NCBI GenBank assembly: GCA_039583875.1
Contig: CM077150.1
Coordinates: 183,214,375 to 183,278,374, forward strand
Length of the DNA stretch: 64,000 nucleotides
Reading direction: 5' to 3'
Origin: Platanthera guangdongensis
Lineage: Eukaryota > Streptophyta > Magnoliopsida > Asparagales > Orchidaceae
Below, piece after piece: positions 3,170-40,662 of the stretch. The translations under genes were made by a program, and so were the position numbers. The notes beneath the pieces were generated by a model. The model had not been told where the DNA came from, did no database searches, and was given only the letters and a program-made list of their open reading frames with translations. How positions within the stretch are numbered: the first letter of the stretch is position 1; each line of letters starts with the position of its first letter.

Positions 3170-3196
3170 TTTACAAAATTTAGCTAAGTAAAATTG

Positions 3197-13656: not shown

Positions 13657-13663
13657 GGGGGAG
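13654..13663 (+). other. G polypurine tract
   Basis: TGAGGGGGAG abuts the TG start of the 3' LTR at 13664; it overlaps the pol stop codon. Confidence 0.85.
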
Positions 13664-14093
13664 TGTTGCACGATGGAGACCGGGTGGTCTGTTGATGTTC
13701 GAAGACCGGGCGGTCTGGCGGTTTCTCCTAGCCGGTCTGTGTGCTGGGCTGTTGCAGTTTGGTGTCCTAGCGGTCAGGCGGCTTGTCTCAGACAACTTGG
13801 AGACAGGGCGGTCTAGCGGTCTCCTGTGACGACTTGCTCTCTGGGGTGCTTGTTCTCTCATCCTGGTTGTGGTCGGGCAGTTAGCCGGTTTGTCTAAACG
13901 CACGGCTTGTCCGGTTTGCCTTTTTGTAAAGTCGCATATACTTGTAAATTTTAAGTCCCACATTGTTTTTTTGTAATCTCTCTCATCTCCTCCATTCTAT
14001 AAAAGGGAGGCTATACTATTGTAATTTATACCTTTTTGGGATAATAAAGTTTCTGTTAAACCACTTCCGGTTTGTTTCTGTTCGTTTCTAACA
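13664..14093 (+). repeat. G 3' LTR (430 bp)
   Basis: It starts TGTTGC and ends CTAACA, with the same TATA-like and polyadenylation-like signals as the 5' LTR. Confidence 0.9.
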
Positions 14094-17000
14094 AACCTTA
14101 ACTTATATGAATGCCCATACAAAATTATAAGTTAAGTGATCTTTTACAAGTCTCCCATCGTATAAAAAGTCTCATACCGATTTATACGTTGGGGTGTCGG
14201 TTTTCAAGCAAGTAATAAATATATCCATATAATAATAACAATAGATTATAAGCACGCTCAAACAAGCTTATAAACTAAGAGGGTCATTTTGCAGGGCCTA
14301 TCGTATAAACTGTCCCATACCAATTTATACGATGGGTGTCAGGTTTAAATGCAATGATTTATGATATGCTATGTTATGCCATGAGTCATGCAAGTGTAAC
14401 ACACCCACCCGACATTGTGCACACAGACATTTAGTTCCCCCTTTCTGGAGCCTAATCTCCCACGATACCTCCGTAGTGGAAAATGAAATTGGTGGGTTGG
14501 GCCTCGCCTACCTCTAAACCGGTAATTGCACTACCAGTCAGACCTATCATACGCCTCAATACTGGTGCACTAAGCAGAGCTCCTGCATACTCTTTGCCGA
14601 CTGGTCCACCAGACTTAATTTGGCGAAGTGCTAAACCACACTTGCCAAGTCAATGTATTGGCGTCGGTGCATCGACATTCCAACACCGAATACCCACCAC
14701 CTTAGAATTTATGCACATGCAATGTTGATGTATCAACCACCGAGCCAAAGCTCTTCGGACAATCCAGTCCGTCACAAATATCTACCGAGCCAAAGCACCC
14801 TTGACTAACCCGTCCGTCTCAAAACCATCCGAGCCATCGGCTCGCCGGGCTAACTTGCCCTTCACCAAAACCACCGAGCCAACTGACCATGTGAACCAAC
14901 CTAACTTCTAAAGACACCGGGGTGTGTGATACTGAACCCCTAGTTATACTAGTTGCCCTTAAACATTGATTTTCCCTGCAGTTTAGGTTAGCCCAGCACT
15001 GCCCAAGGTATTCCCGATGAAGGGCTCTCACAGAGCACTAGGAACTACGACGGGCTGAAGCCCAAAGCTCCCTTTCGCAAGGCACTTACTATTATTGGTT
15101 AATAACCGATTCCCGATCCCTTTTTAATATTACTCTGGATCTAACCCTAGTGTGTTTGGACTCTCCCTCTCTCTCTCTCCACAGGAAAGACGATCTTTCG
15201 TCGATCCAGAGCATCTCTTAACTCTAGCCAACCCAACACTCTCCTCATCATGATTCCTAATGAAACTCTCTTTCATCTTACCAAATTAGCTTGCATTTCT
15301 TGCCACTTCATATGACCACATCCCATGTTATTACAATTTTCGCAGTTTTAGTAAATGAAGACCAACATATGCTATATAATGTACATGATAGGAGGGTACT
15401 CCAAATTTCATCCACAAGCCTTAAGATATTTAATGGGGGTCTATCATGACATGATTAGCCTATCTCCAGAAACTTATAATTTTCCTAATTAATTTTCCCC
15501 AATTTTGTCCATGAGTAATTTGAACATGAAGTACAATATATTCTCAAATAATGTCCACCCAAAAATTATGAACACTAGATAACAGAGGAATAATAGTAAA
15601 TACCAAGCCTCATGATTTTTCCATAAATTATTTGGCCTCTAATTAATTAATCCAATGATAAGCCATTCATTATGGATAAAGAAGAAAGTACTAAAGTTAA
15701 TCATCAGAAAATTGAAGAAAAATTATTGAATCTCAAGGATGACCAGAAAGGGTCTCTGACCAAAAATTACATTTTGTCAATCTCAATAAGTATAAAAATA
15801 AATTCAGTTACTTTTACTTAGAAAACTGCACCTTGTGAACCAACCCCTATAGATATACTTCCAAAAATTCCACAAAAAATCACAGAGCTTTAAAATGTCA
15901 ATAAACGTCTTCTTAACAAATTTCATAAGTTTCCATTGAGTTGTTTGTTTATAAGAAATTTCTAAGTAGAAGGTTCAACTTGATGGGTTGTGAGTGAACT
16001 ACCCCATAAAATGATCAAAAATTCATATTAAAAATTTCTAGGGCTTATTATATAAAACATAGCTTGACTAAATATCATCCAAACTCAAGGTCAGGAAGTC
16101 ACATAATAAAATTCTTCAAGACAACACATGATAGTGCATTTTTCAAAGGAACCCACTTGTAAAGTCATCCAAACATTATATAGTATATTTCAGTGGTTAA
16201 TATGATTAAGAAAATGACCTCTACCAAAATGTCATGCAGTTTCAAAGTCATATGAGCCACTAGACATTCCCTAAGGTGTATGGACCCAAAAACTTACCTA
16301 GTGGTTTAAGTAGTGTTCATGTGTCCAAAACTCACCACATCTCTCCCTAGGGCTTTTGACCACCTTAGAATCACATGGACTAAACACCAAGTCCATACAA
16401 GGGCATTTCACCCCATGCCCTCCACAAATCCCCAAAGCCCAACCTTCGGGCATGTACTTGGGTCCTCGGGAAAATCTATCCCAACCCACCGCAAATTCCT
16501 TGTGAGGCTGTCTAGCATCACATCAAACCAGTGGCCCAAGTTTCAACCTCTGTTGAGGTGATTTGACTACTTAAACCCACAAGGAACACTTTGACCTAAA
16601 TACCCCTCTTTTGTCCAAGGATAGGGTTTACAAAAATTCAACCCAAATCATCTCAAAATGAGATGGAATTTTTTCCAGAGACTTATGATTACCCAAGGAC
16701 CACTCACCAAAATTTGGGAGGGTTTGCAGGTCATTAGCTCCTCTAATTAAATTACCCTAGGATTATTAAATAATTTCAAAAACTATAGAAAAAGTAATTC
16801 CAAAAATTCCTATTTTTGGATATGTTCTATGTATAGGAAAGAATAGCCCCCATCCAAAATTTCAAGTCATTTGGATAGTTGGATTGATGGGGCACTCAAA
16901 ATAGTCTTTGTTCCATCCTAGGTATAGTGCACACCAAAATGAGTGCTCTGATCAAACCATTTAACCAAATGGGTTGAAACAAATTTTAAAATAAAGTAGA

Positions 17001-18570
17001 CCCTTAGAGCTACAATGTTCATGTTGATCATTTTCTCTGAAACAACCCCAAGTTATTTTTATCATAATTCCTAAATGTCTGATTTTTAAAGGCAGAAAAT
17101 ACATTAATTATAATATTTATAGCTTGATCTAACACAGATCTTGACGTAAATCCGCCGGCTGCCGGTGATCCTCTTCTTCCAGCCGACGGGTGAGATTTAC
17201 CCGACCTGGAGCTTGTTCCATCCATGTTTCCCGGCCACCCGGCCACCTCCCTAGCCGGCCACCGCCGCCGCCACCTCTGTTGAGGTGGGGGCTATCGCCG
17301 GGCGCAGCACGACCGCACCTCTGGGCGATCCCGACAATGAGTTTTTTTCCAGGAAAAATAGGAAATTGAAAGCTTTGATCTGGCTCAATTGAGACCGATT
17401 CTTATCCCTATTGAATCCTATGATCTACCCACGGATGAAGGAGCAAGGGAGGACATGTTGGGATGGTTGGAGGCGCGTTGATCTCCGATTAGCCATGGTG
17501 TTGGTGCCACCGATCGGGTTTCTGCAACACATAGTCAAGTGCTTCGAATCCTTCAGGTAAAGGTTGTAACCTTCTCCCCTCTGCCTGGACATGCTTTTAA
17601 GATCCCTAATTGGGTTTGGGGAAGGGTGTAACTCCAATGGCATGGTCATTTTCAGTTTCAGCCATTTGAAGGGCTGAGCCACCCCATTGGCTAGCCACCT
17701 CCTGAAAACCCCTCCCCTTCCTCCAAGGAGTAAAATCCCATCAAGGTGGGGGGGGGGTGTTTGAAACCTTCATGGCCATAATGGCAATTAAGCTCCATTT
17801 TCTCTCTTCCCAAGTGGGGGTAACCTCCACCCTCTCTCTCCTAGTCATGACTTTCTGAATTTGGTGGGCCGAAAATGTGTCTCTCCACTTCCTTAGACTA
17901 ATGGGTCACGCCACTTGGGCTTAGCCCACTTAAATTGGGCTAGGTTAACCTAAGTTGACCACTTTGACCCATGAGTTGACTTTGGTAAACATGACCATTT
18001 GGGTTGACCCCAAGGGGCCTTGGTGACCCCTTGGCTCCCCTTAGGTCCAGGAAGGGTTATGTAGGGTTGACTTGGCACCTTGGTGGTCACTTGCCCCTTA
18101 ATTAGGACACTTTGACCACTTTAGGGCAAGGATTGACTTGGGTAAACTTAGCCTCTAAGGTTGACCCCATTGTGTCTTTGGTGACCCATTGACTTCACCT
18201 TAGGTACAGGAAGACCTAGGTAGGGTTGGTTGGGCACATTAGGGGCACATTTCCCTTAGTTAGGGCACCTTGCCCAATTTAGGAGTAGGATGATCCTAGG
18301 TCAACTTGGCCACCCTGGGTTGACTCCAATAGAATGTTAGGGCTCTAATGGACCTTGCAATAGGTTGGTGAGGTTGTAGTGGGGTCCTTGAGTCATGGTG
18401 AAACCCCATGATCATCCTTAACTAGTGTTTAGAAACCTACTATTCGCAGACCATAGTGATCTCACCTACATTCCTAGGTCCACTTGGTATTCTTGGGAAT
18501 CCTAGGGTTTTGTCATAACTAGTCATGAAAAAACCACTGCTAAAGGTCTAGTTTTCTGAGGGATGTTACA

Positions 18571-19680
18571 AATCCCAATACACAAACAAAAAATTTCGTC
18601 CTCGAAATTCAAGTTAGGGCTACGAGGTTGTAAGGAATACGTGACTGAAAAGCTCTGGGTACTTTTGTTGCATTAAATCCTGTGGATCCCATGTGTGCTC
18701 CTCCTCGCCATGAATACTCAACAAGACCTTGACCAACGAGACCTTCTTGCATCGCGGGACCCGCATCCCAGTATCTTTTATCCGGATCGGCTCCAGGTGC
18801 ACCGATTGATTAGAAGCTATAGGCCCATCTGTAGTCGTAATCTGCTGCTCCGGTCGAAGTAGAGCTCTCCTCAGGGAGGAGACATGAAAGACGTCGTGTA
18901 AACCCGCTAGCTCTTGCAGTAGCTCCAGTCTATAAGCCAAGGAGCTGATCCTATCCAGAATCCTGTATGGCCCCATGTTCTAGGGCTGAGCTTCTTTCGA
19001 CCATGCACCCGCGAGACTCCATGCATCGGTCAGATCTTCAAAAATACCCGGTCTCCTACCTGAAACTCTACCTAACGAAGTCGAGCGTCGTAATACTTAG
19101 CCTGACTGCTCTGGGCCCCCAACATTCTGTCTCAAATCAATCAGACCTGAGCATCCATATCCTCGACAAACTCTGAGCCGAGTGACTTCGGATCCACATC
19201 CTGGATCCAAGACAAAGGATTCCTGCATCTCTGGCCGTATAAAGCCTCATAAGGGGTCATGCCGATACTGGACTAGTGCTTGTTGTTGTACGAGAACTCG
19301 ATCAATGGTAGTTGGCATTCCCATGGCTCTCCGCGGTCCAGTATGTAAAGATATAGTAAATCTTACAGGGTCCGATTGGTGTGCTCTTTCTATCCATCCG
19401 TCTGATGGTGGAAGGCGGTACTAAAAGTCAATCATGACCCCAAATAAGCTAGAACCGTCCTCCATTCCATAGACGTGAATCCTCCATCACGATAGGACAC
19501 TATCATTCTTGGCACTCCTCATCCCAAACCTTGTTAAAAGTGGACAATTTACACATGATCCCCCATATGGGCACACCACTGCTTCCATTGCTTAATTTGT
19601 CCCCAAACTAAACTCGTGCGGGGGTTACGCAGGGTTAGTGGACTACTACTTTTCGATCGAGGTTTGGATCTGATACCACT
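18571..19680 (-). pseudogene. pol: B1 internal remnant: gypsy integrase end joined to leader
   Basis: Read on the minus strand, a primer-binding site and an 86-bp leader (19595-19680) join directly to the later part of a gypsy integrase, which runs to the LTR at 18570. The clear ORF 18620-18976 has the GPY/F-type start MGPYRILDRI, LHDVFHVSSLRRALL and a chromo-like tail (LVKV...HTWDPQDLMQQKYPELF), as in Tekay/Del-like elements. Gag, protease, reverse transcriptase, RNase H and the integrase core are missing, so only about 1.1 kb of internal sequence lies between two 5-kb LTRs. Confidence 0.75.
19666..19678 (-). other. B1 primer-binding site
   Basis: Minus-strand TGGTATCAGATCC lies two bases inside the LTR edge at 19681 and matches initiator-Met tRNA. 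Confidence 0.8.
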
Positions 19681-20499
19681 TGTAAGACCCCATTTTTTTA
19701 TTTTTAAACCAAGGGGTCTTAGGCCCAGAACCGCCGCTTTGTGGTGACACCATCACACCTGGGAAGTTTGTCACTACAAAACGACAATCCTGCAAGCCAT
19801 ATCGATCAAATAATAGTAGCAAAAGTATGAGAGTATATGAAATTAGAATTCTAACACATGTCCACAAAAATCACATATATAGTAATTATTTTCCACGAAG
19901 GGAGAGTCCACAACAATAATAATAAAAGTACTGAAAATAGGGCTCATGCCCGATACATAAAGTCCTCACTATATGTCACTCATCGCGGAAGCAAATCTAT
20001 AACAACTACTAGCGAACGGGACTCACTGTCCCAACTGTCTGAACTCCGGTGCTAGACTGTCCCATCTCCAAGCGTGCCGAACTCCGGGGCTACACCTCCA
20101 AGCTGGGCTCCACGATCCCCTAAAATGATTTGGTACGAAAACCATTAGTCTAAAAGACTAAGTCCTATCATCCCATACCCCTCCCCCCATGGCTCCTAGG
20201 CACCGAGCGGAGAGGAGGAAAAAAAGGTAATGAAGGCGGAGAATAATCAAGGCAGATGATGGTGGAACTATTCTAGTAGTTATTTATAATGTATTTACAG
20301 CTAATGAAGGATGGTACAAGCTAGCCGTAAGTCAGAAAGTAAAACAGAGCAGCAAGTATATGAAATGAAATAAGTAACCTTAACTTATATGAATGCACAT
20401 ACGAACTTATAAGTTAAGGGATCTTTTACAAGGCTCTCATCGTATAAAAAGTCCCATACTGATTTATACGTTGGGGTGTCGGTTTTCAAGCAAGCAATA

Positions 20500-22480
20500 T
20501 GAAAGTGCAGCTAGATCTGATATACTCTAGAGGGGGGGGGGGGTGAATAGAGTATATGGTGTTTATAAAACTTTTACAACTGCTGTTGTATTTTAGGTGT
20601 GTGTGTGTGTGTGTGTGTGCAGGGAAGCAAGTACAATAAATCAAAAAGAAAACAACAATGGACTAAACAAAGCACATTCACAGAGCAAGGCCAGAAAACA
20701 AAAGGAAAAGAAAGCAAGCAGATGACACAAGAATTTTATAGTGGTTCCCCAAATCTGGGTAGTCCACTCTTCTACCACCCTGGTAGGAATCCACTGCAGG
20801 AAGGGGTTGATCAGGTGTCCTGGCACCAATGGGGTTTTGATCAGGTTCCCAAAAACCAAACCCTCAAGTCTTTTGGTGGGAGACTTGCAACCAGAATAAT
20901 TTGGAAGGGAATTAAAACCCTGTACAGAGGTGGAGTGAGAGGGTGATGAGGTCTTCTCTTTCTCAAGTCAAATGAGAAGACTTGTGGAATGTTGTTTAGC
21001 AGCTTTGCTCCCCCTGAGATGTAGAATGGATCAGGAAGAATGCTGGAGAACTGCTTCAGGGTGATAGGTCTTCAAAGACCTAGAATTCCAGGTCCAGAGC
21101 AAATCTTCAGGAACTTCTTGTAACTGATATGAATGTGTTGTTTCTTGAAGTTATCCTGAGTGAAAGCAGATGAAAAAGACTCTTAATATTGATGTAGTGT
21201 TCTTCTTCTTCTTCTAGATCAATTTCTCTCTGGGCCAAGAATGAATTCTTTTTCTTGTGTTATCTGAATCGCTGTGTATGCTTTTCTTGTTGTTGTCTGT
21301 TGTGTATCTCTGTGTTACTGACTGTTTATGTATATCTGTCTATTTCTCATAAGAACACACTCGAATCTTTGAATGTCGAGCAGTAATGGCAGACGGCCTG
21401 GAAAGGAAGCAGCAATTAATTATTTCCCCAACTGTTTCCATGGGAAAAAAGGCATGTAATAATCCAGAATTAACTGTGCATCCTAACGGTAGTATTCTAT
21501 GAAGAACTGCCATTAATTGTCCAGGAATCAGCGCCATGGAATGAGACGGGAATGGAAGAAGACCTAGTCTGGAATCGTCGACCGAAGAACATAATTCGTC
21601 GAGCTGAGTTTAGAGTTCGTCGAGCTGAACAGAGTTCGTCGAGCTGAGCTGAGTTCATCGAGCTGAGCTGAGTTCGTCGAGCTGACAGTCTTCATTCGTT
21701 GAATAGACAATCTTCAATAGCAGACAAACACTATTCGTTGAGCAGAGAACTAAATTCGTCGAGCTGAGAATAAACTTCGTCGACCTGAGAAAAGTTCTGG
21801 ACTTGGACGAAATACTCTGCATCTGCTGAATTGCTGTGTCGACACAAAATGGTGTCGACAGATTTGTCTTGGTGTCGACACAAATCCTCTGGTGTCGACA
21901 GATTGATCTTGGTGTCGACACAAATCCTCTGGTGTCGACATAAGCTGGTGTCGACTGAAATCCTGGGTGTCGACACAAATCGTCTGGTGTTGACACAAGC
22001 CCTAAGTGTCGACACAAATTCTCTGAGCACAAAAATCGTCGAGTAGAGATTAGCATTCGTCGACCTGAGAAGCTGTGAACTTGAGGTCCAAGTTCATCGA
22101 GCTCAGAATATAATTCGTCGATCGAAGCATGAAGCTGGACTTAGAGAAATTCTGAAGTAGTCCTGATAAGCTTGAGGTAGAATCCGTTGTTCGTCGAGCA
22201 AGGAACGAAGTTCGTCGAGCTTAGCACTGCGAATTTTCTCACGATCATCGAGCGCAGAACTTCCTTCGTCGAGCTGAGTTCGACGAACGTCGAACTCATT
22301 TCACTTAGTCTGAAAAACTGATAGATCTGGAGTTCCTGATGGTCTTGAAGAAGGCTGGTCCATCTGAAGTTGAGATAGAGGACTGTCCTAGACTCTAAGA
22401 TAAGAAATTGACCCAGACTATACATGATGGGTCACAACCTAAGTCAGTGAACCTAGCCCAAATCAACTAGGGATCCAACA
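20500..22480 (-). repeat. S2 3' LTR (1981 bp)
   Basis: On the minus strand it starts TGTTGGATCC and ends CACTTTCA. It contains a GTGTCGACAC array (about 21835-22020), TTCGTCGA-type sites on both sides of it (including a full bipartite palindrome at 22265-22287), a GT microsatellite (about 20597-20622) and a poly-G tract (about 20534). It retains about 115 bp lost from the other LTR. Confidence 0.9.
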
Positions 22481-23314: not shown

Positions 23315-23369
23315 TGTAACACCCCGAAACTCAAAGGAGCAAAGGGGGACGTTTTGGGCCAGTTTGGGT

Positions 23370-24030
23370 TCTTGCAGCAGGCACACGGCCTGGGACACGG
23401 GCATGTCCCAGGGCGTGTCAAGCGTGTGTCGACACTTAGCCGCGAAGTCGTCGAGATTTTCTCGACGATTCGCTGAGAATGGGCACACGGCCTGCGACAC
23501 GGGCGTGTCGCAGGGCGTGTCGACCTGTGTCGACACTTAGCCGTGAAGTTGTCGAGTTTTACTCTACGATTCGTCGAGAATGGGCACACGGCCTGTGACA
23601 CGGGCGTGTCGCAGGGCGTGTCGACCCATGTCGACGATCATCCCGGAGAGTCGTCGAGATTCACTCGACGATCGTCGAGGCATGGCACACGGCCTAGGAC
23701 ACGGGCGTGTCCAAGGTCGTGTCATCAAGTCGTCGATCTTCCCTCGACGAAGTGTCCCGTGTACACGGCCTGGGGTCCAGGCGTGTCAATGTGACATGGG
23801 TAAGGACACGGGCGTGTCCTAGAACCCGTGCAGTGCTCGGGTTGAAAATGGGGAAAAATCATGGGATACACGGCCGGCTACACGACCGTGTGAAGTGGAA
23901 CACGGGCGTGTCAGCTCGAACACGGGCGTGTTCGATACCCGTGTGAGGTTCCAGGAGATTCGATTTTGACGGCGAATGCGGCACACGGCCCTGGACACGG
24001 GCGTGTGCCAGGCCATGTTTGGCCCAGATT
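23370..24030. repeat. A 5' LTR palindrome block
   Basis: Alternating units: hairpins of GACACG-GG-CGTGTC type, four 8-7-8 bipartite sites (from about 23447, 23545, 23651 and 23726) and GTGTCGACAC. The matching block in the 3' LTR is 30540-31180. Confidence 0.85.
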
Positions 24031-24270
24031 GGGCATTTCAGCCCCGAATCAAAGCCGTTCGTTTCCTTAGGTTGAGATCCAACGGCTGGGGGTTGTTCCT
24101 GAGAGGATATACCCGTGAGTTGACTTAGAAATCCATCACTTTCATACCTTATCATCTCTCCAAGTCCTTGGAGAAAGAGGAGAGTCATTGGAGGAAGAAG
24201 AACTAGATTCTGCAATTGGAGGAGCTTCGGAGCTCCGAATCGCAAGCCGACTCCATCCGATTACTTTTCA

Positions 24271-24294
24271 ATAGCGCCAAAGAGGAACTCAAGG
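24271..24294 (+). other. A 5' LTR mini-exon, start codon mutated (ATA)
   Basis: Eight codons ending in AGG are followed by GTAACG (donor at 24295). The first codon is ATA here but ATG in the 3' LTR copy (31465-31467) and in the C, C', D, E and F LTRs, so this copy has lost its initiator by G to A. Spliced to 25810 the frame enters gag in phase 0. Confidence 0.65.
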
Positions 24295-25809
24295 GTAACG
24301 ATCCTCATCTTGAGCACGAATAGCTCTCTTTCCTAGAATAGGAAGCCTGCTCTCGCGAGTTTGCGGAGAGTTGGAGGCGTTCCTTCGGGTAGATATGTAA
24401 AGTCCCCGTTGTTTAGAGTCCGTATGCGAGAACGGACGTAGGCATGATGTGTGAAGCCTACCCGGACATGTTAGTCTGGATCGGTGATGTTGCATTGCAT
24501 AAGGCCGGAGAAGACTCCGAGCTATTGGTTGTTTTTCGGGTTTTCTACGCGGTAGATTGCAGCAGGGAGCCTTGGGGACTAACCCAAAGGTACACCCGGA
24601 AAACTGGGCGGATACGAGATCTTGCCAACTTGGTGGCTTGAGAGCCAACTTGAACATAACGGGGTTATGTGACTTGTGATGGAAATGGGACTCGGTGGAA
24701 GTTTGACCCGCGCAAATGGCTTAAATTGCCGTTGCGATGTGAGCACGGGTTAGATGGAACCGTACCCGTTCTATGTCGTTTGGTTAAAGAGACCTAAAGG
24801 CACGTGGCACTTACCGTTGGCATAGAGTAGGGTCTTCGGCGGTTAATGGCTTAAATTGTCGTGACCCAGGCCAGGAAGACGAATTGCTCATAGGTTTGGC
24901 CGTCTGAGTGGCGGTGGTGAGTCCGGAATGTTAATGGCTTTAATTGACGTGACATCGACCGGTTCACCGAGAATGTGCCCTGAGTGCACGGGGCATGTGG
25001 CCGTACGAGCCAACGTCTGTGATGACATTGCTATGGTTATTTATATGGCTCGCTTATGCTAATGAAATGCAGGGAAGGAGCATCGCCGCCCCGAGTTGGG
25101 GGCGGGATCGTTATAATTTGGTCAGCATTGCTGACCGTTGCCTTGTTTTGCCACCGTGCGGTGGTTTGTTGCTTGCAGGTGCAGCTGGACCAAGCGGTCA
25201 ATAGCGGGCTAAAGCCCTTTTTGCGAAGCCGGCCCTCGAAGGCCCAAATGGAAATGTTTATTGCTTTATTCATGTATGACCGGCCTGCGTGCCGTGGTTT
25301 GTAAATCATGTAATATTCAAGTGAAACATTTTGTAAGGCCTTAAGGCTTGTTTTGAGTATTTTGTATTAACATTCCTGTTTGGTACTAGTGGACATTCGT
25401 GCTCTAATGCTGGGTTCTTTGTTTACAACTTTTATAAACTGCTTCCGCTAGAATGCTCTGTGTAGGACATTGAGATTGGTTGGATGGTTTCCATACGTAA
25501 CCACCCAGTCTGTCTGTGGTCTATGGCGTCGGGCCCCGGCCGGACCTACTGCTATATGCTATGCGACGGATAGGGGGTGTTACAATTTGGTATCAGACTA
25601 CTGGTTTTGGTCGGGCTTAAAGTGAATTCGTGGGCGAATTCTTTTTAAGGGGTGGTGAGCACATTGTGTGCGCCATCGTTATAACAGTAAAAAGAACCCA
25701 TGAATGTCCACTTAGGAATGAAAATACTCGTGTTTGAGGAACCTGCGTGTTCCTATAATTGCTGTTTGCAATTTATTTGGTCGCTTAACGGTGTTTTGTA
25801 CCACTATAG
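24295..25809 (+). other. A candidate intron 1 (LTR to gag, 1515 nt)
   Basis: The donor AGG/GTAACG is conserved in most gypsy LTRs of the window. The acceptor is TTTTGTACCACTATAG just before gag. The intron would contain the rest of the LTR transcript and the primer-binding site, so spliced RNA could not be a reverse-transcription template. In E the matching interval is 52910-54400 (1491 nt). Inferred from sequence only. Confidence 0.6.
25588..25604 (+). other. A primer-binding site
   Basis: TGGTATCAGACTACTGG starts three bases after the LTR end and matches initiator-Met tRNA at its first ten bases. Confidence 0.85.
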
Positions 25810-26964
25810 GTGACCAGAAGTGGTGTTGGGCCGTCAGAACGCCGAGTTTCTGAGGCTAGTAGTGCACCGGATGTTGCTCCTGCAACACTTCTGTCGGCTG
25901 AAAATATACGATTGGTGGCTGAAGCGGTGTTGGCCGTGATTAATGCGCAGCCTGGAAGGCAAGCGCAGCAGCCCGCTCCCGTGATGGAGCAAGAACCTCT
26001 ACAAGAGGCTGAGCCGAGGATGGTGGAGCAAGTGGTTGTAGAACCGGTAGTGCCAAGGAGGCCAACTGAGAGGCAGCTAAAGCATGTAATGAGCTTTAAG
26101 CCTCCGTTATTCTCGGTGTTGGGAACCCCATCTCAGGCTGAAGACTGGCTCTCCAGGCTGAAGAGAGTCATGACAGCGACGGAGACGGAGGAGTGGCAAA
26201 TGACCACCATCGCTACGTTCCTTTTGGACGATGAAGCGAGGATGTGGTGGGAAGGATTGGAGCTGCATCATTTGAGAGGTAGACAACTGATAGACGTTCC
26301 GATGGAAGAGTTCTCGGGATTGTTCTTAGCAAGATACCTACCTTCTACTCAGAGGATTTCGATGGAGAATGAGTTCCTGAAGTTGGTTCAGGGTGAGAGG
26401 AGCGTGGATGAATATCTCCACGAGTTTACTCGTCTGAGTCGTTATGCTAGCTCCACCATCATGGATGAGGAGCGCAAGACTAATCGCTTCTATGAAGGGT
26501 TGAGAGATGAGTTGAGATTACTACTGTCGGGGCCAATGACGCAGGGTTTCTTAACCTTGGTCAATACTGCCCGGTCCTTGGAGAAGGACATGAAAAATGT
26601 ACAAGCGAAGAAAAGCTTGGGTGAGAAGAAATCTGAGTTCAGAGTGCCGACTACTTCAAAGTCTGGCTATCGGAGGTCTTTCAAGAAGCATAGGACTTCG
26701 GGTCCAGCTCCTTCTGGTGCTTCTGGGGCGACTACGAGTCGGACCCCGGGTGCGTGTTTTACATGTGGAAAGACGGGGCATTTCGCCCGTGACTGTTGGA
26801 GCGGACGTCCTAAGTCCGAGAGAAAGCCGGGAGCTACCTATGAAGAGAAGGGAAAGGCGTTGGAGTCGACCGCATCCCATTATGCTCCGGCCCAACCAAG
26901 GGTCTACAATCTTGGCCAACAAGAAGCCATTAAACAAGCTGATGTGGTGACAGGTACGGTTTAA
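25810..26964 (+). CDS. gag: A Gag (exon 2; stop codon lies in candidate intron 2)
   Basis: The 384-codon frame begins with GTG at 25810. A TAG stop lies immediately upstream at 25807-25809 and the first in-frame ATG is about 58 codons in, so its start is unusual. The E copy has the same TAG/GTG arrangement, and the LTR mini-exon would supply the start. The retrotransposon Gag domain covers about residues 90-235 (FLLDDEARMWWEGLE, RSVDEYLHEFTRL, KTNRFYEGLRDELRLLL). A basic stretch follows, then a CCHC knuckle CFTCGKTGHFARDC (about residue 316) for RNA binding. Gag forms the particle that packages the RNA. It ends at TAA 26962-26964, eight bases into the candidate intron 2. Confidence 0.9.
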   Translation: MTRSGVGPSERRVSEASSAPDVAPATLLSAENIRLVAEAVLAVINAQPGRQAQQPAPVMEQEPLQEAEPRMVEQVVVEPVVPRRPTERQLKHVMSFKPPLFSVLGTPSQAEDWLSRLKRVMTATETEEWQMTTIATFLLDDEARMWWEGLELHHLRGRQLIDVPMEEFSGLFLARYLPSTQRISMENEFLKLVQGERSVDEYLHEFTRLSRYASSTIMDEERKTNRFYEGLRDELRLLLSGPMTQGFLTLVNTARSLEKDMKNVQAKKSLGEKKSEFRVPTTSKSGYRRSFKKHRTSGPAPSGASGATTSRTPGACFTCGKTGHFARDCWSGRPKSERKPGATYEEKGKALESTASHYAPAQPRVYNLGQQEAIKQADVVTGTV

Positions 26965-27028
26965 TTTATAGCAAGTCAATTTCTTATATGCTTGTTATGC
27001 ACATGTTACCTTACCACTACTTGTTTAG
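26954..27028 (+). other. A candidate intron 2 at the gag-protease junction (75 nt)
   Basis: The donor is ACAG/GTACGG and the acceptor TTGTTTAG/G. The interval is AT-rich, with a branch-point-like CTTAC at 27010-27014. It contains the gag stop TAA. Removal joins gag to protease in frame (phase 1 on both sides). E has the same borders at 51687-51762 with 76 nt, and removal also restores frame there. Retained intron gives Gag; spliced RNA gives Gag-Pol. Stop-codon readthrough could serve A but not E. Confidence 0.7.
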
Positions 27029-30000
27029 GATTTGTATTGATTTGTGAAAATCTGGCACGAGCACTCTTCGATACGGGAGCTTCACACTCCTTCTTGTCCG
27101 AAGGATTTATATCACGCATCGGAGTCCCTTCTTCGATGGCGAAGGATAAGTTGGATGTGTTGTTGCCCAATGGGTGTTCGATGCGAGCGGATAGGATCTG
27201 CGATGTTAAGACTCGTATTGGGGAGCAGGAGTTCGACCTGCGGGCGTCTTTACTTCCGTTAGTGGAGTTCGACGTCATATTTGGCATGGACTGGCTCTCG
27301 GAGCAGCAGGCCCATATAGATTGCGGTAGCAAGGAAGTTAAGTTGGGAGCGAGTCGTGAGACGATGTTTACGGGCTTAAAGGGGTCGAGCAAGACGTTGA
27401 TGTCTGCTCTTCAGGTGGTGAAGGCGGTTCGTGCTGGAGCAGAACTGTTCTTTACACTAGTGGAGGTTGCAAAGCCGAAGCCCGCGTTGGATTGTATTTC
27501 AGTGGTATCGGAATACCCTGATGTGTTCCCCGCAGATCTTCCTGGAGCCCCGCCTCAGCGCGAGATAGATTTTATGATCGAGCTAGTGCCAGGTGCAAAG
27601 CCTGTGTCACGATCTCCATATCGGCTAGCGCCTAAGGAAATGGCGGAGCTGAAAGTTCAACTGCAAGAGTTGTTGGAGCAAGGGTGTGTGCGCCCGAGTT
27701 CTTCGCCTTGGAGCGCACCGGTCCTCTTTGTTAAGAAGAAGGACGGAAGCTTGAGGCTATGTATTAATTACCGGGAGCTCAACAAGCTGACTGAGAAGAA
27801 CAAGTACCCGATCCCTCGGATTGATGATCTCTTTGATCAGTTAGTCGGGTCGACGGTGTACTCGAAGTTAGATCTCAAGGCTGGGTACTATCAGCTGCGA
27901 ATAAGGGAGAGTGATATCCCGAAGACAGCGTTTAGTACGAGATACGAGCATTATGAGTTTACGGTCATACCGTTTGGGCTGACTAATGCGCCGTCAGTAT
28001 TCATGGATTTGATGAATAGGACGTTCAGGGAGTACTTGGACCATTTCGTGATCGTCTTCATCGACGATATTTTGGTGTACTCGCAAAGTGAGGAAGATCA
28101 CTTCAAGCATCTTCATTTGGTGTTGGAGACGCTAAGGAGAAATCAGTTGTATGCCAAGTTCTCGAAGTGCGAGTTTTGGCTATCCTCAGTGGCGTTCCTC
28201 GGGCATATAGTAAGTGGAGAGGCTATTACTGTGGATCCGGCGAAGATTGTTGCGATACGGGAGTGGCCTGAGCTTGCTACGGTAGCAGAAGTCCGGAGCT
28301 TTTTGGGGCTTGCCGGCTATTATAGGCGCTTCGTAGAGAACTTCTCGCGGATAGCGTTACCTCTCACTACTTTGACGAGGAAGGAGCATAAGTTCGTTTG
28401 GACGCCGGAGTGCGAGCGAGCTTTCGAGGAGTTGAAGTGTCGGTTGACCACGGCGCCTGTGCTGAGTTCGCCATGTGGAACCGAAGGCTATGAGATATAT
28501 AGCGATGCTTTGGGCAGCGGTTTGGGTTGCGTGCTACTACAGCACGGAAGCGTGATAGCTTATGGCTCGAGACAGCTAAAAGCGCACGAGAGGAATTATC
28601 CGGTCCATGACTTGGAGTTAGCGGCCGTGATTTTTGCCTTGAAGCTGTGGAGACACTATTTGTACGGTGTGAAGATTGATATCTACACCGATCACAAGAG
28701 CCTGAAGTATCTTCTTGATCAGAAGGATCTGAATATGCGGCAGCGTAGGTGGATGGAGTTCCTGGGGGACTATACATTCAAGATCCACTACGTGCCTGGC
28801 AAAGGAAATGCGGTTGCGGACGCGTTGAGTCGCCGAGCCCCAGCTCAAGCCAATTGGCTATCAGAGCATGATGAGCGGTTGGTGCGGGAGTTGGAGGCGT
28901 TGAAGATTGTTTGTGTGGACAGGCAATCAAGTGCTGAAGCAGTTCTAAATTGGACTGAAGTCCAATATGACCTGGCTGATCGTATTCGGCAGGCTTTGGA
29001 TATGGATGCTCATATGAAGCAGTTCATGGTAGAGGCTCTGGATGGGTCAAATTCCCAATTCGTCGTGGAGGACGGATTGCTGTGGAAAGACGGTCGTTTG
29101 TGCGTCCCAAGTGTGGGCAATTTATGGGTGGAGTTGTTGTACGAGGCGCACCATACCAAGTACTCGATTCACCCGGGGAGCAGAAAGATGTACCGTGATG
29201 TGAAGAAACTGTTTTGGTGGCCGGGTTTAAAGAAGGATGTGGCGCTATACGTAGCAAAGTGCCAAACTTGCGCCTTGGTAAAGGCGGAGTGCCAAAAGCC
29301 GGTTGGATTTCTTAAGTCCTTGTCTATTCTGGAGTGGAAATTCGACGACATCTCTATGGACTTTGTGCATGGTTTGCCAAGGTCGCAAAAGGGGAACGAC
29401 GCCATTTGGGTGGTTGTTGATCGATTAACGAAGGTGTCGCATTTTATTCCGCATAGGAAGGATGATCCGGTGGAGAAGTTGGCAAAGCTTTATGTGGATA
29501 ACATAGTGCGGCTTCATGGTGTGCCCCGCAGCATCGTGAGTGACCGAGATGGGCGGTTCACGTCCAATGATTGGAGGCTTGTGCAGCAAATGTTGGGAAC
29601 AAAGCTGAAGTTCAGCACAGCCTTTCATCCACAAACGGATGGGCAGACCGAGAGGGTTAATAGAACCATGGAAGACATGCTCCGCATGTGTGTCTTATAT
29701 TTTGAAAAGCAATTGGAAGACCACCTTTATTTGGTGGAGTTATCATACAACAACAGCTACCAAGCGAGTATTCTAATGGCGCCCTTCGAGGCCATATATG
29801 GTAGAAGATGTCGCACGCCGTTGTCTTGGTTAGAAACGGGTGAGTCAAAGTTGTATAAGCGATTGGAAGTGGATGATGCTATTTCTTTGGTGAGAACCAT
29901 TCGGGAGAGGTTGCTTATCGCTCAGGACCGGCAAGCAAAGTACTATAATGCCAAGCACAGGAACGTGGAGTTCGCTGTGGGCGATTATGTATACTTAAAG

Positions 30001-30411
30001 ATCAAGCCGTTCAAGGGTGTCCCGCGGGTGCGGCGATTGAAAAAGCTAAGCCCGAGGTACCTTGGACCGTTCAAGGTTCTGGAGCGAGTTGGGGAAGCAG
30101 CCTATCGGTTGAAGCTTTCAGTGGAGCTAAGTGGTTTACATGATGTATTCCATATTTCGGTGCTTCGGAAGGCGGTGCAAGAGCCTACGCAGGTGATCGC
30201 GGTTGATCAAGTGCTGGTGGATAGTGGGCTAACGACAAAGGTCAAGCCCGTGCGGATTGAGGACTCGGAGGTCAAGCGGCTACGCAATAAAGAGATCAGG
30301 ATGGTCAAGGTCCGGTGGGACAATTGCGGTCGTGAGGAGCTCTCTTGGGAGAGAGAGCAGACTATGCTTGACGAATATCCGGAGTTGTTCCGCTCAGGTA
30401 CAAAATTTTGA
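27029..30411 (+). CDS. pol: A Pol: protease, reverse transcriptase, RNase H, integrase, chromo-like tail
   Basis: The open frame starts at 26992 and is uninterrupted to 30411 (1139 codons). Positions from 26992: protease [11 protein letters not shown] (Asp at about 27); reverse transcriptase with [21 protein letters not shown] and catalytic FIDDILVYS (about 355); RNase H with [10 protein letters not shown] (about 503) and [10 protein letters not shown] (about 566); integrase zinc-binding [11 protein letters not shown]...CQTCALV (about 720-765), DDE core with [14 protein letters not shown] (about 850) and [22 protein letters not shown] region [24 protein letters not shown]; a chromo-like C-terminus ([19 protein letters not shown]). 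The last feature and order fit Tekay/Del chromoviruses. All visible catalytic residues are present, so the enzyme is probably intact. Without splicing there is no good start codon: the frame opens after the gag stop. Confidence 0.93.
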
Positions 30412-30455
30412 TTTTGTACATGTCTTTCCTTTATGTAATTTCGTGGGCGAAATTC

Positions 30456-30473
30456 TTTTAAGAGGGGTAGAGT
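30456..30473 (+). other. A polypurine tract
   Basis: TTTTAAGAGGGGTAGAGT abuts the 3' LTR start; E has a similar tract at its own LTR edge. Confidence 0.85.
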
Positions 30474-32778
30474 TGTAACGCCCCAAAACTCAAAGGAGCG
30501 AAGGGGGACGTTTTGGGCCAGTTTGGGTTCTGGCAGCAGGCACATGGCCTGGGACACGGGCGTGTCCCAGGGCGTGTCAAGCGTGTGTCGACACTTAGCC
30601 GCGAAGTCGTCGAGATTTTCTCGACGATTCGCTGAGAATGGGCACACGGCATGCGACACGGGCGTGTCGCAGGGCGTGTCAACCCGTGTCGACACTTAGC
30701 CGTGAAGTTGTCGAGTTTTACTCGACGATTCGTCGAGAATGGGCACGCGGCCTGCGACACGGGCGTGTCGCAGGGCATGTCGACCCGTGTCGACGATCAT
30801 CCCGGAGAGTCGTCGAGATTCACTCGACGATCGTCGAGGCATGGCACACGGCCTAGGATACGGGCGTGTCCAAGGCCGTGTCATCAAGTCGTCGATCTTC
30901 CCTCGACGAAGTGTCCCGTGTACACGGCCTGGGGTCCAGGCGTGTCAATGTGACACGGGTAAGGACACGGGCGTGTCCTAGAACCCGTGCAGTGCTCGGG
31001 TTGAAAATGGGGAAAAATCATGGGGTACACGGCCGGCTATACGGCCGTGTGAAGTGGAACACGGGCGTGTCAGCTCGAACACGGGCGTGTTCGATACCCG
31101 TGTGAGGTTCCAGGAGATTCGATTTTGACGGCGAATGCGGCACACGGCCCTGCACACGGGCGTGTGCCAGGCCGTGTTCGGCCCAGATTGGGCATTTCAG
31201 TCCCGAATCAAAGCCGTTCGTTTCCTTAGGTTGAGATCCAATGGCTGGGGGTTGTTCCTGAGAGGATATACCCGTGAGTTGACTTAGAAATCCATCACTT
31301 TCATACCTTATCATCTCTCCAAGTCCTTGGAGAAAGAGGAGAGCCATTGGAGGAAGAAGAACTATATTCCGCCATTAGAGGAGCTTCGGAGCTCCGAATC
31401 GCAAGCCGACTCCGGATCCACGGAGGCGACGCTAGTGCGGTGATTTCCATCCGATTACTTTTCAATGGCGCCAAAGAGGAACTCAAGGGTAACGATCCTC
31501 ATCTTGAGCACGAATAGCTCTCTTTCCTAGCATAGGAAGCCCGCTCTCGCGAGTTTGCGGAGAGTTGGAGGTGTTCCTTCGGGTAGATATGTAAAGTCCC
31601 CGTTGTTTAGAGTCCGTATGCGAGAACGAACGTAGGCATGATGTGTGAAGCCTACCCGGACATGTTAGTCTGGATCGGTGATGTTGCATTGCATAAGGCC
31701 GGAGAAGACTCCGAGCTATTCGTTGTTTTTCGGGTTTTCTACGCGGTAGATTGCAGCAGGGAGCCTTGGGGACTAACCCAAAGGTGCACCCGGAAAACTG
31801 GGCGGATACGAGATCTTGCCAACTTGGTGGCTTGAGAGCCAACTTGAATATAACGGGGTTATGTGACTTGTGATGGAAATGGGACTCGGTGGAAGTTTGA
31901 CCCGCGCAAATGTCTTAAACTGCCGTTGCGATGTGAGCACGGGTTAGATGGAACCGTACCCGTTCTATGTCGTTCGATTAAAGATACCTAAAGGCACGTG
32001 GCACTTACCGTTGGCATAGAGTAGGGTCTTCGGCGGTTAATGGCTTAAATTGTCGTGACCCAGGCCAGGAAGACGAATTGCTCATAGGTTTGGCCGTCTG
32101 AGTGGCGGTGGTGAGTCCGGAATGTTAATGGCTTTAATTGACGTGACATCGACCGGTTCACCGAGAATGTGCCCTGAGTGCACTGGTTGTGTGGCCGTAC
32201 GAGACAATGTCTGTGATGACATGGCTATGGTTATTTATATGGCTCGCTTATGCTAATGAAATGCCGGGAAGGAGCATCGCCGCCCCGAGTTGGGGGCGGG
32301 ATCGTTATAATTTGGTCAGCATTGCTGATCGTTGCCTTGTTTTGCCACCGTGCGGTGGTTTGTTGCTTGCAGGTGCAGCTGGACCAAGCGGTCAATAGCG
32401 GGCTAAAGCCCTTTTTGCGAAGCCGGCCATCGAAGGCCCAAATGGAAATGTTTATTGCTTTATTCATGTATGACCGGCCTGCGTGCTGTGGTTTGTAAAT
32501 CATGTAATATTCAAGTGAAACATTTTGTAAGGCCTTAAGGCTTGTTTTGAGTATTTTGTATTAACATTCCTGTTTAGTACTAGTGGACATTCGTGCTCTA
32601 ATGCTGGGTTCTTTGTTTACAACTTTTATAAACTGCTTCCGCTAGAATGCTCTGTGTAGGACGTTGAGATTGGTTGGATGGTTTCCATACGTAACCACCC
32701 GGTCTGTCTGTGGTCTATGGCGTCGGGCCCCGACCGGACCTACTACTATATGCTATGCGACGGATAGGGGGTGTTACA
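30474..32778 (+). repeat. A 3' LTR (2305 bp)
   Basis: It matches the 5' LTR throughout but keeps the 35 bp missing there. It carries hairpins (for example arms 30549-30558 and 30561-30570), bipartite sites at 30606-30628, 30707-30729, 30809-30831 and 30888-30910, and an intact mini-exon. Confidence 0.93.
31465..31488 (+). other. A 3' LTR mini-exon (ATG intact) with splice donor
   Basis: ATG plus seven codons, MAPKRNSR, followed by GTAACG at 31489. In the 3' LTR it is not used for this copy's gag, but it shows the ancestral state of the mutated 5' copy. Confidence 0.65.
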
Positions 32779-35207: not shown

Positions 35208-38200
35208 TTAATTTAACTCTTCTCCATCAATCATTCCCAGTTGATTTATAAAGAACAGATGGGTTTTCTCATCCAAAGGCTTGGTGAAGATATCTGCTCT
35301 CTGTATATCAGTAGGAATGTGGATCAAGTTAATTTTCTTTTTGTCCACATTATCTCTAATGAAATGATGTCTTATTTCAATATGTTTAGTCCTAGAATGA
35401 TGAACTGGATTCTGAGTTATAGCAATAGCACTTGTATTATCACAGAATAAGGTTAAATTAATTAAGTTGATACCATAGTCTAGGAGTTGGTTTTGTATCC
35501 ATAGCATCTGTGAACAGCAGCTGCCAGCAGCCATATACTCTGCCTCAGCAGTTGATGTAGACACAGATGTCTGCTTTTTGCAAAACCAAGAGACAAGTCT
35601 CATACTCAGGAACTGGCAAGTTCCATAGGTACTTTTCCTGTCCACTCTACATCCACCATAGTCAGCATCTGAGTATCCAGTTAACTCAAATTCTAACTCT
35701 GCAGGATACCAGAGTCCTAAACTAGGACACCTCTTTATATATCTCAAAATCCTTTTTAGAAAAATAAGATGAGATTCTTTAGGATTCACTTGGAATCTAG
35801 CACAAAGGCATGTGGCAAACATTATGTCAGGCCTGCTAGCTGTTAAGTATAATAGGGATCCAACAATTGCCCTATAATGTTTCTGATCTACAGGTTTCCC
35901 TGCTGCATCAGAATCCACAACAGCATTGGTAGCCATATGTGTTTTCATTCCTGAGGCATCACCCATCCCAAACTTTTTAATAAGCTCTTTAGCATATTTA
36001 GATTGGGAGAGGAAGATACCATCAGGGAGCTGCTTCACTTGGAGACCAAGGAAGTAGGAAAGCTCACCCATACTACTCATCTCAAATTTGGAATGCATGA
36101 GGTCAGCAAACCTCTGGCACAATTTGGGATCAGTGGACCCAAAAATAATATCATCCACATATATTTGTACTAATAAGATTTGGTCCTTATAATGTCTAGT
36201 GAAAAGGGTTTTATCTATGGTTCCTCTTGTAAATTTATGCTCTAAAAGAAAGCTAACTAGGGTCTCATACCAAGCTCTTGGAGCTTGCTTTAAACCATAG
36301 AGAGCTTTATGCAATTTGTAAAGATAAGAGGGTTGAGTTAGAGAGATAAAACCTGGAGGTTGTTCTACATAAACCTCTTCTTGAAGTACACCATTCAGAA
36401 AGGCACTTTTAACATCCATCTGAAATACCTTGAACTTTTTGTATGCTGCATAGGCTAGGAATATTCTAATGGCCTCCAACCTTGCAACAGGGGCAAAGGT
36501 TTGGTCATAGTCTATTCCTTCTTCTTGTTTATAGCCTTGGGCAACCAGTCTAGCCTTGTTCCTTACTATGTTCCCTTGTGCATCTAATTTGTTCCTATAG
36601 ACCCATTTGGTTCCAATAACTGGGTAGTTATGGGGTCTTGGAACCAAATCACAAACTCTACATCTCTCAAACTGATTTAGTTCCTCTTGAATTGCAAGAA
36701 TCCAGTGGGGATCTTGCTCAGCTTCATGGATGGTGAGAGGTTCAATTTGAGAGAGAAAACAAGCATGCATCAAGTCTTGATTGAGCTGATGTATTATCTG
36801 TACACCAACTAAAATGTCCCCAATCACTTGAGATTTGGGGTGATCTCTAAGTGTGACAAGATCAGTTTGTGGAGTTGGTTGAGCAATAGCTTCTGTAAAT
36901 AATTCCTCTTGAGGAATGGTACTGGCTGTTGATGGAAGTTCAGTTACTTCCTCTTGGATTTCCTCTTCACTATCTTCAGCAGTCTGTGGAGTGGGATGAG
37001 TTGGAACCTCTTGGGTAAGGTTTAGTCCATCCATAGACTCACACATTGGTGAAACCTGCAAAGGACTATTAGTAGAAATGTCTTTCTTCTAATAAGCCAT
37101 GTTAGCTTCATCAAAAGACACATGGAAAGATTCTTCAATTTTAAGGGATGTTTTGTTGAAAACCCTATAGGCCTTGCTTACTTGGGAATATCCTAGAAAA
37201 ATCCCTTCTTCAGCCTTAGCCTCAAACTTTCTAATGTATCTTTTGTTATTAGTGTGGATGTAACATATGCAACCAAAAACTTTAAAGTAAGTGATTTTAG
37301 GTTTCTTTTCTTTAAGTAATTCATAGGGGGTCTTGTGTTTTAGTTTATGTACAAGACATCTGTTTAGGACATAGTTAGCTGTGTTTACAGCTTCTGCCCA
37401 AAAGGATAGAGGCATGTAAGCATCTGCTAACAATGTACCTGCAGCTTCAATGAGTGTCCTATTTTTCCTTTCAGCTACCCCATTTTGTTGGGGAGTTCTA
37501 GGAGCTGAGAAGCACTGTCTGATACCTTCCTTCTCACAGAACTCATGCATAAGAAGATACTCAAACTCTGTTCCATGATCACTTCTGATCAATGCAACAT
37601 GAGTAGAGAACTCAATCTGTATGGTCCTTAGAAAATCTGTAAGAACTTTAAATGTATCTGACTTAGCTCTCAGGAATGCTACCCAACTGAATCTGGAGAA
37701 ATCATCAACAATAACTAAGGTGTAAGACTTCCCTCCTAGGCTTTGTACTGCAATGGGTCCAAAAAGATCCACATGAAGCAGATACAATATCCTAGGTGAA
37801 TCACTTTTATTAATGGATTTGAAGCTAGTTTTAGTTTGCTTGCCTAGTTGACAAGCCCTGCATAGGCTTTTCTTCTTGTAGGGACCAGAAGGTAAACCTC
37901 TAACAAGGTTGTCTTTAGATAACCTAGATATGTTCTTAAGCTTTACATGTCCTAGCCTTTTGTGCCATAGCTCATTTTGGTTACTAGTGATATTGAGTAA
38001 ACAAATATCAGTTGTGGCAGAAATGAAATCTACTAAATATATGTTTCCTTGTCTAAGTCCAATTAAAACAGTTTGGTTTTTATCATTTATAATAGAACAA
38101 GAGGTAGAGTTGAAATGTACCTGATAACCTTCATCACATAACTGACTTATGGATATAAGGTTATGTTTAAGTCCTCTTACATATGTCACCTTTTTGAAGG

Positions 38201-38354
38201 TCACTGCTCCAATTCTTACTCTTCCATACCCTTCTGACTGACCACTCTTTGAATCTCCAAATATCACCTTTGGTCCTAGCTTGGATTTATAGTTGGAGAG
38301 ATTTGCTTTGCTGCCAGTCATGTGCTTGGAGCAGCCACTGTCCAGGTACCATGT
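35208..38354 (-). pseudogene. pol: S2 pol: protease, integrase, reverse transcriptase, RNase H
   Basis: A single frame runs from 38354 to a stop at 35208-35210 with only one internal stop, TAG at 37089-37091. It begins at the protease motif WYLDSGCSKHMTG, just after a TAG at 38355-38357. Pre-integrase (CRACQLGKQTKTSF), integrase core (HVDLFGPI, VDDFSRFSWVAFLR, TPQQNGVAERKNRTLIEA), reverse transcriptase ([20 protein letters not shown], catalytic YVDDIIFGS) and RNase H ([21 protein letters not shown]) follow in copia order. The gag frame differs, so a frameshift lies in 38355-38719. Nearly intact. Confidence 0.92.
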
Positions 38355-40660: not shown

Positions 40661-40662
40661 AT

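Follow-up and report, generated by a model that had tools for sequence, protein, structure and literature searches.

A long terminal repeat mini-exon as the predicted gag start, and a second predicted intron before protease, in a chromovirus-like group of Platanthera retrotransposons

Predicted coding organization

A stretch of 64,000 nucleotides from the orchid Platanthera guangdongensis (contig CM077150.1, positions 183,214,375 to 183,278,374 of the forward strand; hereafter, the window) contains members of a chromovirus-like (Ty3/gypsy) group of long terminal repeat (LTR) retrotransposons, of which the elements named A and E were analyzed most closely. The coding sequence of this group probably (about 0.8) consists of three exons separated by two spliceosomal introns, with a mini-exon of the LTR serving as its start. 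Exon 1, 24 nt of LTR sequence located 3′ of a TATA-like box, would contribute eight codons (MAPKRxxR) including the AUG. Next would come intron 1 (approximately 1.5 kb), with the remaining LTR sequence, the primer-binding site (PBS) and the leader, followed by exon 2 with the remainder of gag. Intron 2 (approximately 76 nt, T-rich) would carry a stop three codons past the split codon, and exon 3 would encode the proteins from protease to integrase. The unspliced RNA, devoid of a gag start, would be the genome; RNA lacking intron 1 would give Gag and RNA lacking both introns Gag-Pol, so that retention of intron 2 would set the Gag to Pol ratio.

The layout recurs over several families, the reading frames are selected, and a genomic footprint of the loss of intron 2 is present. 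The sequence-only reading of this DNA had proposed that the coding mRNA is spliced. For intron 2, this is now supported by the footprint; the splicing of intron 1, and with it translation from the mini-exon AUG and separate roles for the RNAs, we infer from the recurring layout, from selection, from the first exon-2 codon of the D-type copies (GCA) and from a likeness to the N-termini of predicted gag-pol proteins of other plants. The features of the two elements were as follows.

23315-32778, plus strand: element A, with target-site duplication (TSD) ACATC
23315-25584, plus strand: 5′ LTR of A, 2270 nt, delimited by the LTR ends and the 5-nt TSD ACATC
24108-24115, plus strand: TATA-like TATACCCG, a promoter predicted by sequence, upstream of the mini-exon
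24271-24294, plus strand: mini-exon of A, first codon ATA in this copy
24295-25809, plus strand: predicted intron 1 of A, GTAACG...CTATAG, 1515 nt, containing the rest of the LTR, the PBS and the leader
25588-25597, plus strand: PBS of A, TGGTATCAGA, inside intron 1
25784-25789, plus strand: branch-point-like CTTAAC of A, approximately 24 nt before the acceptor
25810-26953, plus strand: predicted exon 2 of A, gag from codon 9 with Retrotrans_gag and zf-CCHC, 381 codons plus 1 nt
26954-27028, plus strand: predicted intron 2 of A, GTACGG...TTGTTTAG, 75 nt, 43% T, gag-frame TAA at 26962-26964
27029-30411, plus strand: predicted exon 3 of A, protease, reverse transcriptase (RT), ribonuclease H (RNase H), integrase and a weak chromodomain match
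30474-32778, plus strand: 3′ LTR of A, delimited by the LTR ends
31465-31488, plus strand: copy of the mini-exon in the 3′ LTR of A, with ATG, MAPKRNSR
55224 down to 47542, minus strand: element E, with TSD CCCAC
53135-55224, minus strand: 5′ LTR of E, at the TSD CCCAC
54401-54424, minus strand: mini-exon of E, MAPRKNAR, donor GTAATG
52910-54400, minus strand: predicted intron 1 of E, 1491 nt
51763-52909, minus strand: predicted exon 2 of E, gag, with a stop at exon-2 codon 245
51687-51762, minus strand: predicted intron 2 of E, 76 nt
47542-48243, minus strand: 3′ LTR of E, internally deleted and without the mini-exon

The PBS of element E reads TGGTATCAGAGC.

The beginning of gag

It had been claimed from the sequence that the gag frames of A (from 25810) and E (from 52909, minus strand) start with GTG right after TATAG, and hence directly downstream of a TAG stop, that they have no early ATG and that donor and acceptor join in phase 0 in both elements. 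All of this was confirmed; the first in-frame ATG lies at codon 59 of exon 2 in A and at codon 43 in E.

The acceptor was studied in further copies. Querying the genome with the acceptor region yielded 40 places; the 30 that were recovered as loci were all examined, element A among them, and sites in these acceptor-selected copies were mapped using short probes that tolerated mismatches but no gaps. The AG before exon 2, which formed part of the query, was present in 30 of 30 copies, and the first exon-2 codon was GTG in 28 of the 30 A-like copies. For the D-type family, 12 of 40 places with D-type LTRs were taken. Six copies with a gag start were obtained, their gag being approximately 66% identical to that of A, together with a seventh containing part of gag. 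All six harbored the mini-exon ATG and a GT donor; the acceptor was TATAG in five and TATAT in the sixth. Their first codons were GCA in the TATAG copies and GTA in the TATAT copy. For the C-type family, 8 and then 3 slices were taken from 40 places. Three gag starts were found in them, preceded by TATAG (two) or TATAT (one), with the first codons GTG, TTG and GTG; the C-type mini-exon was read in the window copy and the acceptor in these three other copies. A branch-point-like motif was located approximately 24 nt before the acceptor in A (CTTAAC), in the D-type (CTAATC) and in the C-type (CTAATG) copies, and the corresponding region of E (CTTAGC) did not fit it.

The ratio of nonsynonymous to synonymous substitution rates (dN/dS) was determined for the first 45 codons of exon 2. 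Between A and D, it was 0.19, versus 0.87 to 2.21 in the other frames, and the alignment had no gap; between A and E, it was 0.42, versus 0.84 and 1.42 in the other frames. By these ratios, the first 45 exon-2 codons of gag are under purifying selection. In the D-type, the first in-frame ATG was exon-2 codon 23 in five of the six copies, and none was common to A, E and D. Because the first codons of gag are selected, no ATG is shared and a TAG lies directly upstream, gag would have to be read from an upstream start.

The alternative that intron 1 does not exist, gag beginning at the GTG after TATAG as a non-AUG start or at an inner AUG, draws on the prevalence of GTG in the A-like copies and on the P. 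guangdongensis protein P0043, which begins with MTRSG at this very codon. However, the first codon was GCA in five of six D-type copies; therefore, the GTG at the border is not the start in D, and GTG was rejected as the gag start. The first inner AUGs, for their part, are not shared (codon 59 in A, 43 in E and 23 in five of six D copies), and the purifying selection covers codons upstream of them. A coding sequence without intron 1 is thus considered very unlikely.

The leader downstream of the PBS (25610-25750 in the window, compared with the same part of E and of two D-type copies) was 89-95% identical, versus 62-82% for exon 2. Such identity would indicate strong non-coding constraint and perhaps reflects packaging, dimer or splicing signals.

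The LTR mini-exon

The sequence-only reading had described a 24-nt mini-exon ending in AGG, followed by GTAACG or GTAATG, in five LTRs, with peptides varying in sequence and constant in length, start and donor. This description held for E, C, D and F, and it required correction for A, where the site at 24271 starts with ATA and not with ATG. The Met of MAPKRNSR is therefore absent from the 5′ LTR of A itself and is found in the copy at 31465. The 5′ LTR of A also lacks 35 nt just upstream of the mini-exon. Seven mini-exon sites were found in the window, including two additional to those listed earlier, at 31465 (plus strand) and 61389 (minus strand). The sites outside elements A and E were as follows.

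59520-59543, plus strand: mini-exon of the C-type LTR, MAPKRSSR, donor GTAACG
61366-61389, minus strand: mini-exon of the inverted C-type LTR, donor mutated (ATAACA)
63114-63137, plus strand: mini-exon of the D-type LTR, MAPKRTTR, donor GTAACG
8439-8462, minus strand: mini-exon of the F-type LTR, MALKQSSR, donor GTAACG

None of 100 shuffles of the window yielded the pattern that these seven sites match, which had been drawn up after the sites were seen. In an alignment of approximately 620 nt of the five LTR families, with pairwise identities of 52-75%, the mini-exon contained the only common ATG and was followed by the only common GTAA. Among 256 ungapped windows of 24 columns in this alignment, the mini-exon was the only one that was open in all five families and began with ATG. 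The minimum numbers of changes at codon positions 1, 2 and 3 of the mini-exon were 4, 4 and 9, respectively.

A first set of 39 copies was retrieved using the mini-exon region itself as the query. Together with A and E, this query-biased set had ATG in 39 of 41 copies (A and L044 have ATA) and a GT donor in 41 of 41. The near-invariance of the mini-exon in the 39 copies was rejected as evidence, being a matter of ascertainment, as most of the query lies within the invariant stretch. Since the invariance there reflects the search query, this set was replaced by the acceptor-selected one, in which the mini-exon was found in 28 of 30 copies, with ATG in 27 of the 28 (the exception is element A) and a GT donor in 26 of the 28. 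The comparison with neighboring LTR sequence that had been suggested earlier was carried out on the 27 copies other than A. Minor alleles accounted for 0 of 81 positions in the ATG and 3 of 162 in the donor, versus 6.5% in the flanks, and the mini-exon itself reached 6.8%. Low variation within the subfamily is therefore not what supports the mini-exon.

The beginning of Gag was also compared with a set of 122 predicted proteins. The N-terminus MAPKRATRS, comparable to MAPKRTTR of the D-type mini-exon, was found in P0060 and P0092 (Tanacetum), and MPP[RK][RK] in P0005, P0007, P0070 and P0102. The mini-exon accordingly resembles the opening codons of a usual gag of this type, set apart from the remainder. 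A protein search with the window gag gave one relative, from Platanthera, and a search with P0043 gave four matches, including P0043 itself, all from Platanthera.

The distance from the TATA-like box to the mini-exon was 163 nt in the 5′ LTR of A and 198 nt in the copy in its 3′ LTR. The box was located at -198 in seven of seven other A-type copies, with no ATG between box and mini-exon. Upstream of the box, the LTR of element A carries an overlapping internal duplication of approximately 265 nt (83%) at 23380-23743.

Gene models of P. zijinensis, examined as protein sequences, bear on the choice of the first exon. In P0022, P0023 and P0028, an exon border seems to lie exactly before VTRS. The residues preceding it match leader DNA in P0022 and LTR DNA in P0028; those of P0023 (MAGLRAE) end like the P0028 stretch, and the N-terminus of P0010 weakly matches the LTR of A. 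These models seem to support the acceptor and intron 2, yet they pick differing first exons, and so they were rejected as proof of the mini-exon donor. They agree with an alternative in which the acceptor is used while exon 1 is another open stretch of the LTR or leader, or in which there are several first exons: the LTR-derived, leader-derived and MAGLRAE beginnings all appear to be joined to the same acceptor. Against this, the first exons differ from model to model, whereas the mini-exon holds the only ATG and GTAA common to the five LTR families in the aligned 620 nt and reads like the beginning of predicted gag-pol proteins from some other plants. This alternative was judged unlikely, although less so than the absence of intron 1, and the mini-exon is quite probably the first exon spliced across intron 1.

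The segment between gag and protease

A second predicted intron, at 26954-27028 in A and 51762-51687 (minus strand) in E, was absent from the sequence-only reading. When it is retained, gag of element A ends with DVVTGTV and a stop, and protease begins beyond the 75-nt segment; joining the sequences on either side restores a Gag-Pol reading. The T content of this segment in A was 43%, compared with 17% and 33% in the 150 nt immediately upstream and downstream, respectively. In E, the segment is 76 nt, and the protease frame differs from the gag frame unless the segment is removed. In the joined reading, the spacing from VVTG to LFD was 11 residues, as in 33 of the 33 predicted proteins (of 122) with the motif. 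The P. zijinensis protein P0001 ends at the same DVVTGTV, and P0010, P0014, P0022, P0023 and P0028 run from gag to protease as if without intron 2.

Among the acceptor-selected copies, GT and AG were each present in 30 of 30, with lengths of 76 (22 copies), 75 (4), 77 (3) and 56 nt (1). The shortest segment, in copy L071, kept the GT and AG borders at 56 nt. In the D-type, intron 2 also has an early stop, and its GT donor was found in five of six copies. A set of 57 copies was then considered; five rows, some of them loose fits, were not of the GT..AG form, and all were kept. With intron 2 retained, 55 of the 57 shared the position of the resulting stop codon. The commonest length, 76 nt, was seen in 33 of the 57 copies; at least 32 of these 33 had a stop in the protease frame inside the intron. 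In 27, the protease-frame stop occupied one common position beyond the gag stop; therefore, a single frameshift could not join the frames in those copies. In exon 3, dN/dS was 0.12 to 0.20 in the spliced frame and 0.72 to 2.32 in the other frames.

These data bear on whether gag and protease are joined instead by a frameshift or by read-through of a stop, the segment being a mere spacer. In A, the frames agree (75 nt) and read-through of one TAA would suffice, and two copies of 77 nt have a protease frame that stays open upstream as far as gag. The commonest length of 76 nt, with its stops in the protease frame, speaks against a spacer, as do the 209 places in the genome that lack exactly this segment (see below). 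By the survey of frames and stops in the 57 copies, frameshift and read-through were rejected as explanations of intron 2, and the probability left to a spacer is negligible.

Genomic footprint of intron 2 removal

A probe of the joined exons (30 bases, up to 3 mismatches) matched 209 places in the genome, 40 of them with zero mismatches, and an intron 2 donor probe matched 18,504 places; the reversed control gave 0 in both cases. The two probes differ in degeneracy, and the ratio of 209 to 18,504 is accordingly rough. Five of the 209 joined copies were read, and the junction was exact. Their best flanks were 96.6-100% identical to intron-bearing A-type copies (four) or 93.5-94.1% identical to D-type copies (one). 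A tree was built from 56 rows, comprising 51 of 82 rows that passed the length and match limits and the five joined copies, with E excluded by hand. The four A-type joined copies occupied four places in a clade of 28, of which 24 were intron-bearing, and the fifth lay among the D copies; local supports near the joined copies were 0.3-0.93. The split of joining events between the A- and D-types is firmer than the number of events within the A-type.

It may be asked whether the joined copies represent an old intron-free lineage rather than products of spliced RNA. They are a small minority, five of the 209 were read, and some branch supports are low (0.3-0.93), all of which would suit such a lineage. 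However, the five sit apart from one another among intron-bearing copies of two families, with up to 100% identity beside the junction, and an old lineage is therefore regarded as highly improbable. Intron 2 is very probably removed by splicing, as judged from the footprint.

The 3′ end of intron 1 was kept in four of the five joined copies, all four of them A-type; the slice taken for the fifth, D-type copy did not include the element. If intron 2 is spliced out of RNAs in which intron 1 remains, the PBS stays in place and these RNAs could be copied. The predicted organization also accounts for the difference between 209 joined copies of intron 2 and none of intron 1 with A-type probes, since the PBS would be lost with intron 1.

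Evidence unfavorable to the predicted organization

Several observations weigh against the three-exon organization with a mini-exon start. All of the support comes from genomic DNA and predicted protein sequences. No joined intron 1 was found in the genome with two probes, both A-type; this would be expected if its removal deletes the PBS, but also if intron 1 is not spliced. The P. zijinensis models seem to use LTR or leader first exons other than the mini-exon, and P0043 begins at the exon-2 border as though an ATG stood there in that copy. The gag of element E carries the stop at exon-2 codon 245. At least one ATG lies between the TATA-like box and the mini-exon in the window copies E, C and D, which slightly lowered our confidence. 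Within the close subfamily, the mini-exon, its ATG and donor apart, is as variable as its flanks (6.8% versus 6.5% minor alleles). The start codon is ATA in A and in one other of 41 rows (L044). The usual donor consensus is GTAAGT, from which the donor GTAACG deviates at +5 and +6. Finally, the two copies with 77 nt show no stop in the protease frame back across intron 2.

Division of RNA roles

It had been proposed that intron 1 removes the PBS and that translated and genomic RNAs are consequently separate pools. The first part agrees with the position of the PBS (25588) inside the predicted intron; the second follows only if intron 1 is spliced. If so, the genomic RNA would be unable to make full-length Gag, loss of intron 1 would allow Gag synthesis and destroy the PBS, and loss of both introns would yield Gag-Pol. 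This scheme is slightly favored over its absence.

How one RNA acts as both mRNA and genome is a major question for retrotransposons, as stated in the abstract of a study of BARE1 (PMC3735527). If the organization described here is true, the start codon and the PBS, lying on opposite sides of one splice, would make the two RNA roles exclusive. The group is very abundant, with 18,504 recognizable donor sites of the gag intron in one genome. Moreover, any LTR with an intact mini-exon, solo LTRs included, would then represent an AUG exon with a donor and could splice into nearby host genes. Orchid annotations need care with respect to gag starts, as P0001, P0010, P0022, P0028 and P0043 seem to be LTR- or leader-derived or shortened at the N-terminus.

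Classification and comparison with known systems

The order of Pfam domains in element A (gag, protease, RT, RNase H, integrase) is that of Ty3/gypsy elements. A chromodomain at the C-terminus of integrase was matched with an E value of 7e-4 and 19.9 bits, below the curated cut-off of 25.1; the Chromo score was 19.7 in the related P0102 and 11.9 in P0010. A PBS of the tRNA-Met type and a 5-nt TSD are present. The PBS is presumably complementary to initiator tRNA-Met. A tRNA gene was looked for in the window, and none was found. Membership in the Tekay (Del) clade, the name used in the sequence-only reading, is putative and relies on the domain order, the PBS type and the weak chromodomain match. 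According to passages of one source, a tRNA-Met PBS occurs in most chromoviruses, and the polyprotein is encoded in a single open reading frame (ORF) in most plant groups, the Tekay clade not being named there (PMC6317226). The elements described here do not have such a single ORF, as gag is without a start and a stop-containing segment precedes protease. A single ORF does not define the clade; therefore, Tekay membership is not excluded.

The spliced start had been thought to be undescribed for Tekay/Del elements. No account of a spliced, LTR-coded gag start, or of an intron between gag and protease in Tekay, was found in open-licence PubMed Central (PMC) literature by searches partly aimed elsewhere; this agrees with the earlier opinion, Tekay membership of the present elements being putative. 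In yeast Ty1, the start codon of Gag lies inside the LTR, but it is contiguous with gag and unspliced. In the env mRNA of avian sarcoma-leukosis virus, splicing places a small number of 5′ codons in front of a downstream gene and the unspliced RNA translates gag, whereas here it is gag that would require the splice.

Plant LTR retrotransposons generally have no introns, with Ogre and EVADE as exceptions, according to passages of a December 2025 review (PMC12786077). The passages available on BARE1, a Ty1/copia element of barley, describe splicing and distinct pools of RNA for translation and for replication, as proposed here (PMC3735527). However, its intron of 104 nt lies just after gag, and removal creates a stop, so that the spliced RNA gives Gag only (PMC3735527), whereas in the present elements Gag-Pol would result from removal of intron 2 and Gag from its retention. 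Nor do those passages place the gag start of BARE1 in the LTR (PMC3735527). Ogre, a non-chromovirus of the Tat lineage of Ty3/gypsy, has its intron between GAG-PROT and RT, and the passages concerned mention no LTR exon; here, intron 2 would lie between gag and protease rather than between protease and RT. The P4 mRNA of rice tungro bacilliform virus is similar in that a short leader ORF giving the AUG is spliced to a distant ORF; however, in the passages on it, this virus is a pararetrovirus, the product is P4 and not Gag, and the unspliced RNA is the mRNA for coat protein and RT (PMC5902531). Alternative splicing of plant LTR retrotransposon RNA is also described for EVADE and for sunflower Tyran and Varan, but there splicing together with early termination yields short GAG RNAs, and the expressed set of sunflower contained no Tekay members, as far as the passages go (PMC7730604, PMC12786077).

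Other features of the window

The two C-type LTR copies, at 58697-60352 and 60556-62204, are in opposite orientation, 88% alike and separated by approximately 200 nt. Element E is inserted in an older element, whose flanks (42554-47541 and 55226-55711) match 14214-19597, where the sequence is uninterrupted. Direct repeats of approximately 95% identity (20495-22480 and 40659-42552) bracket element A together with copia-type frames at 35211-40257, and they resemble LTRs around nested insertions.

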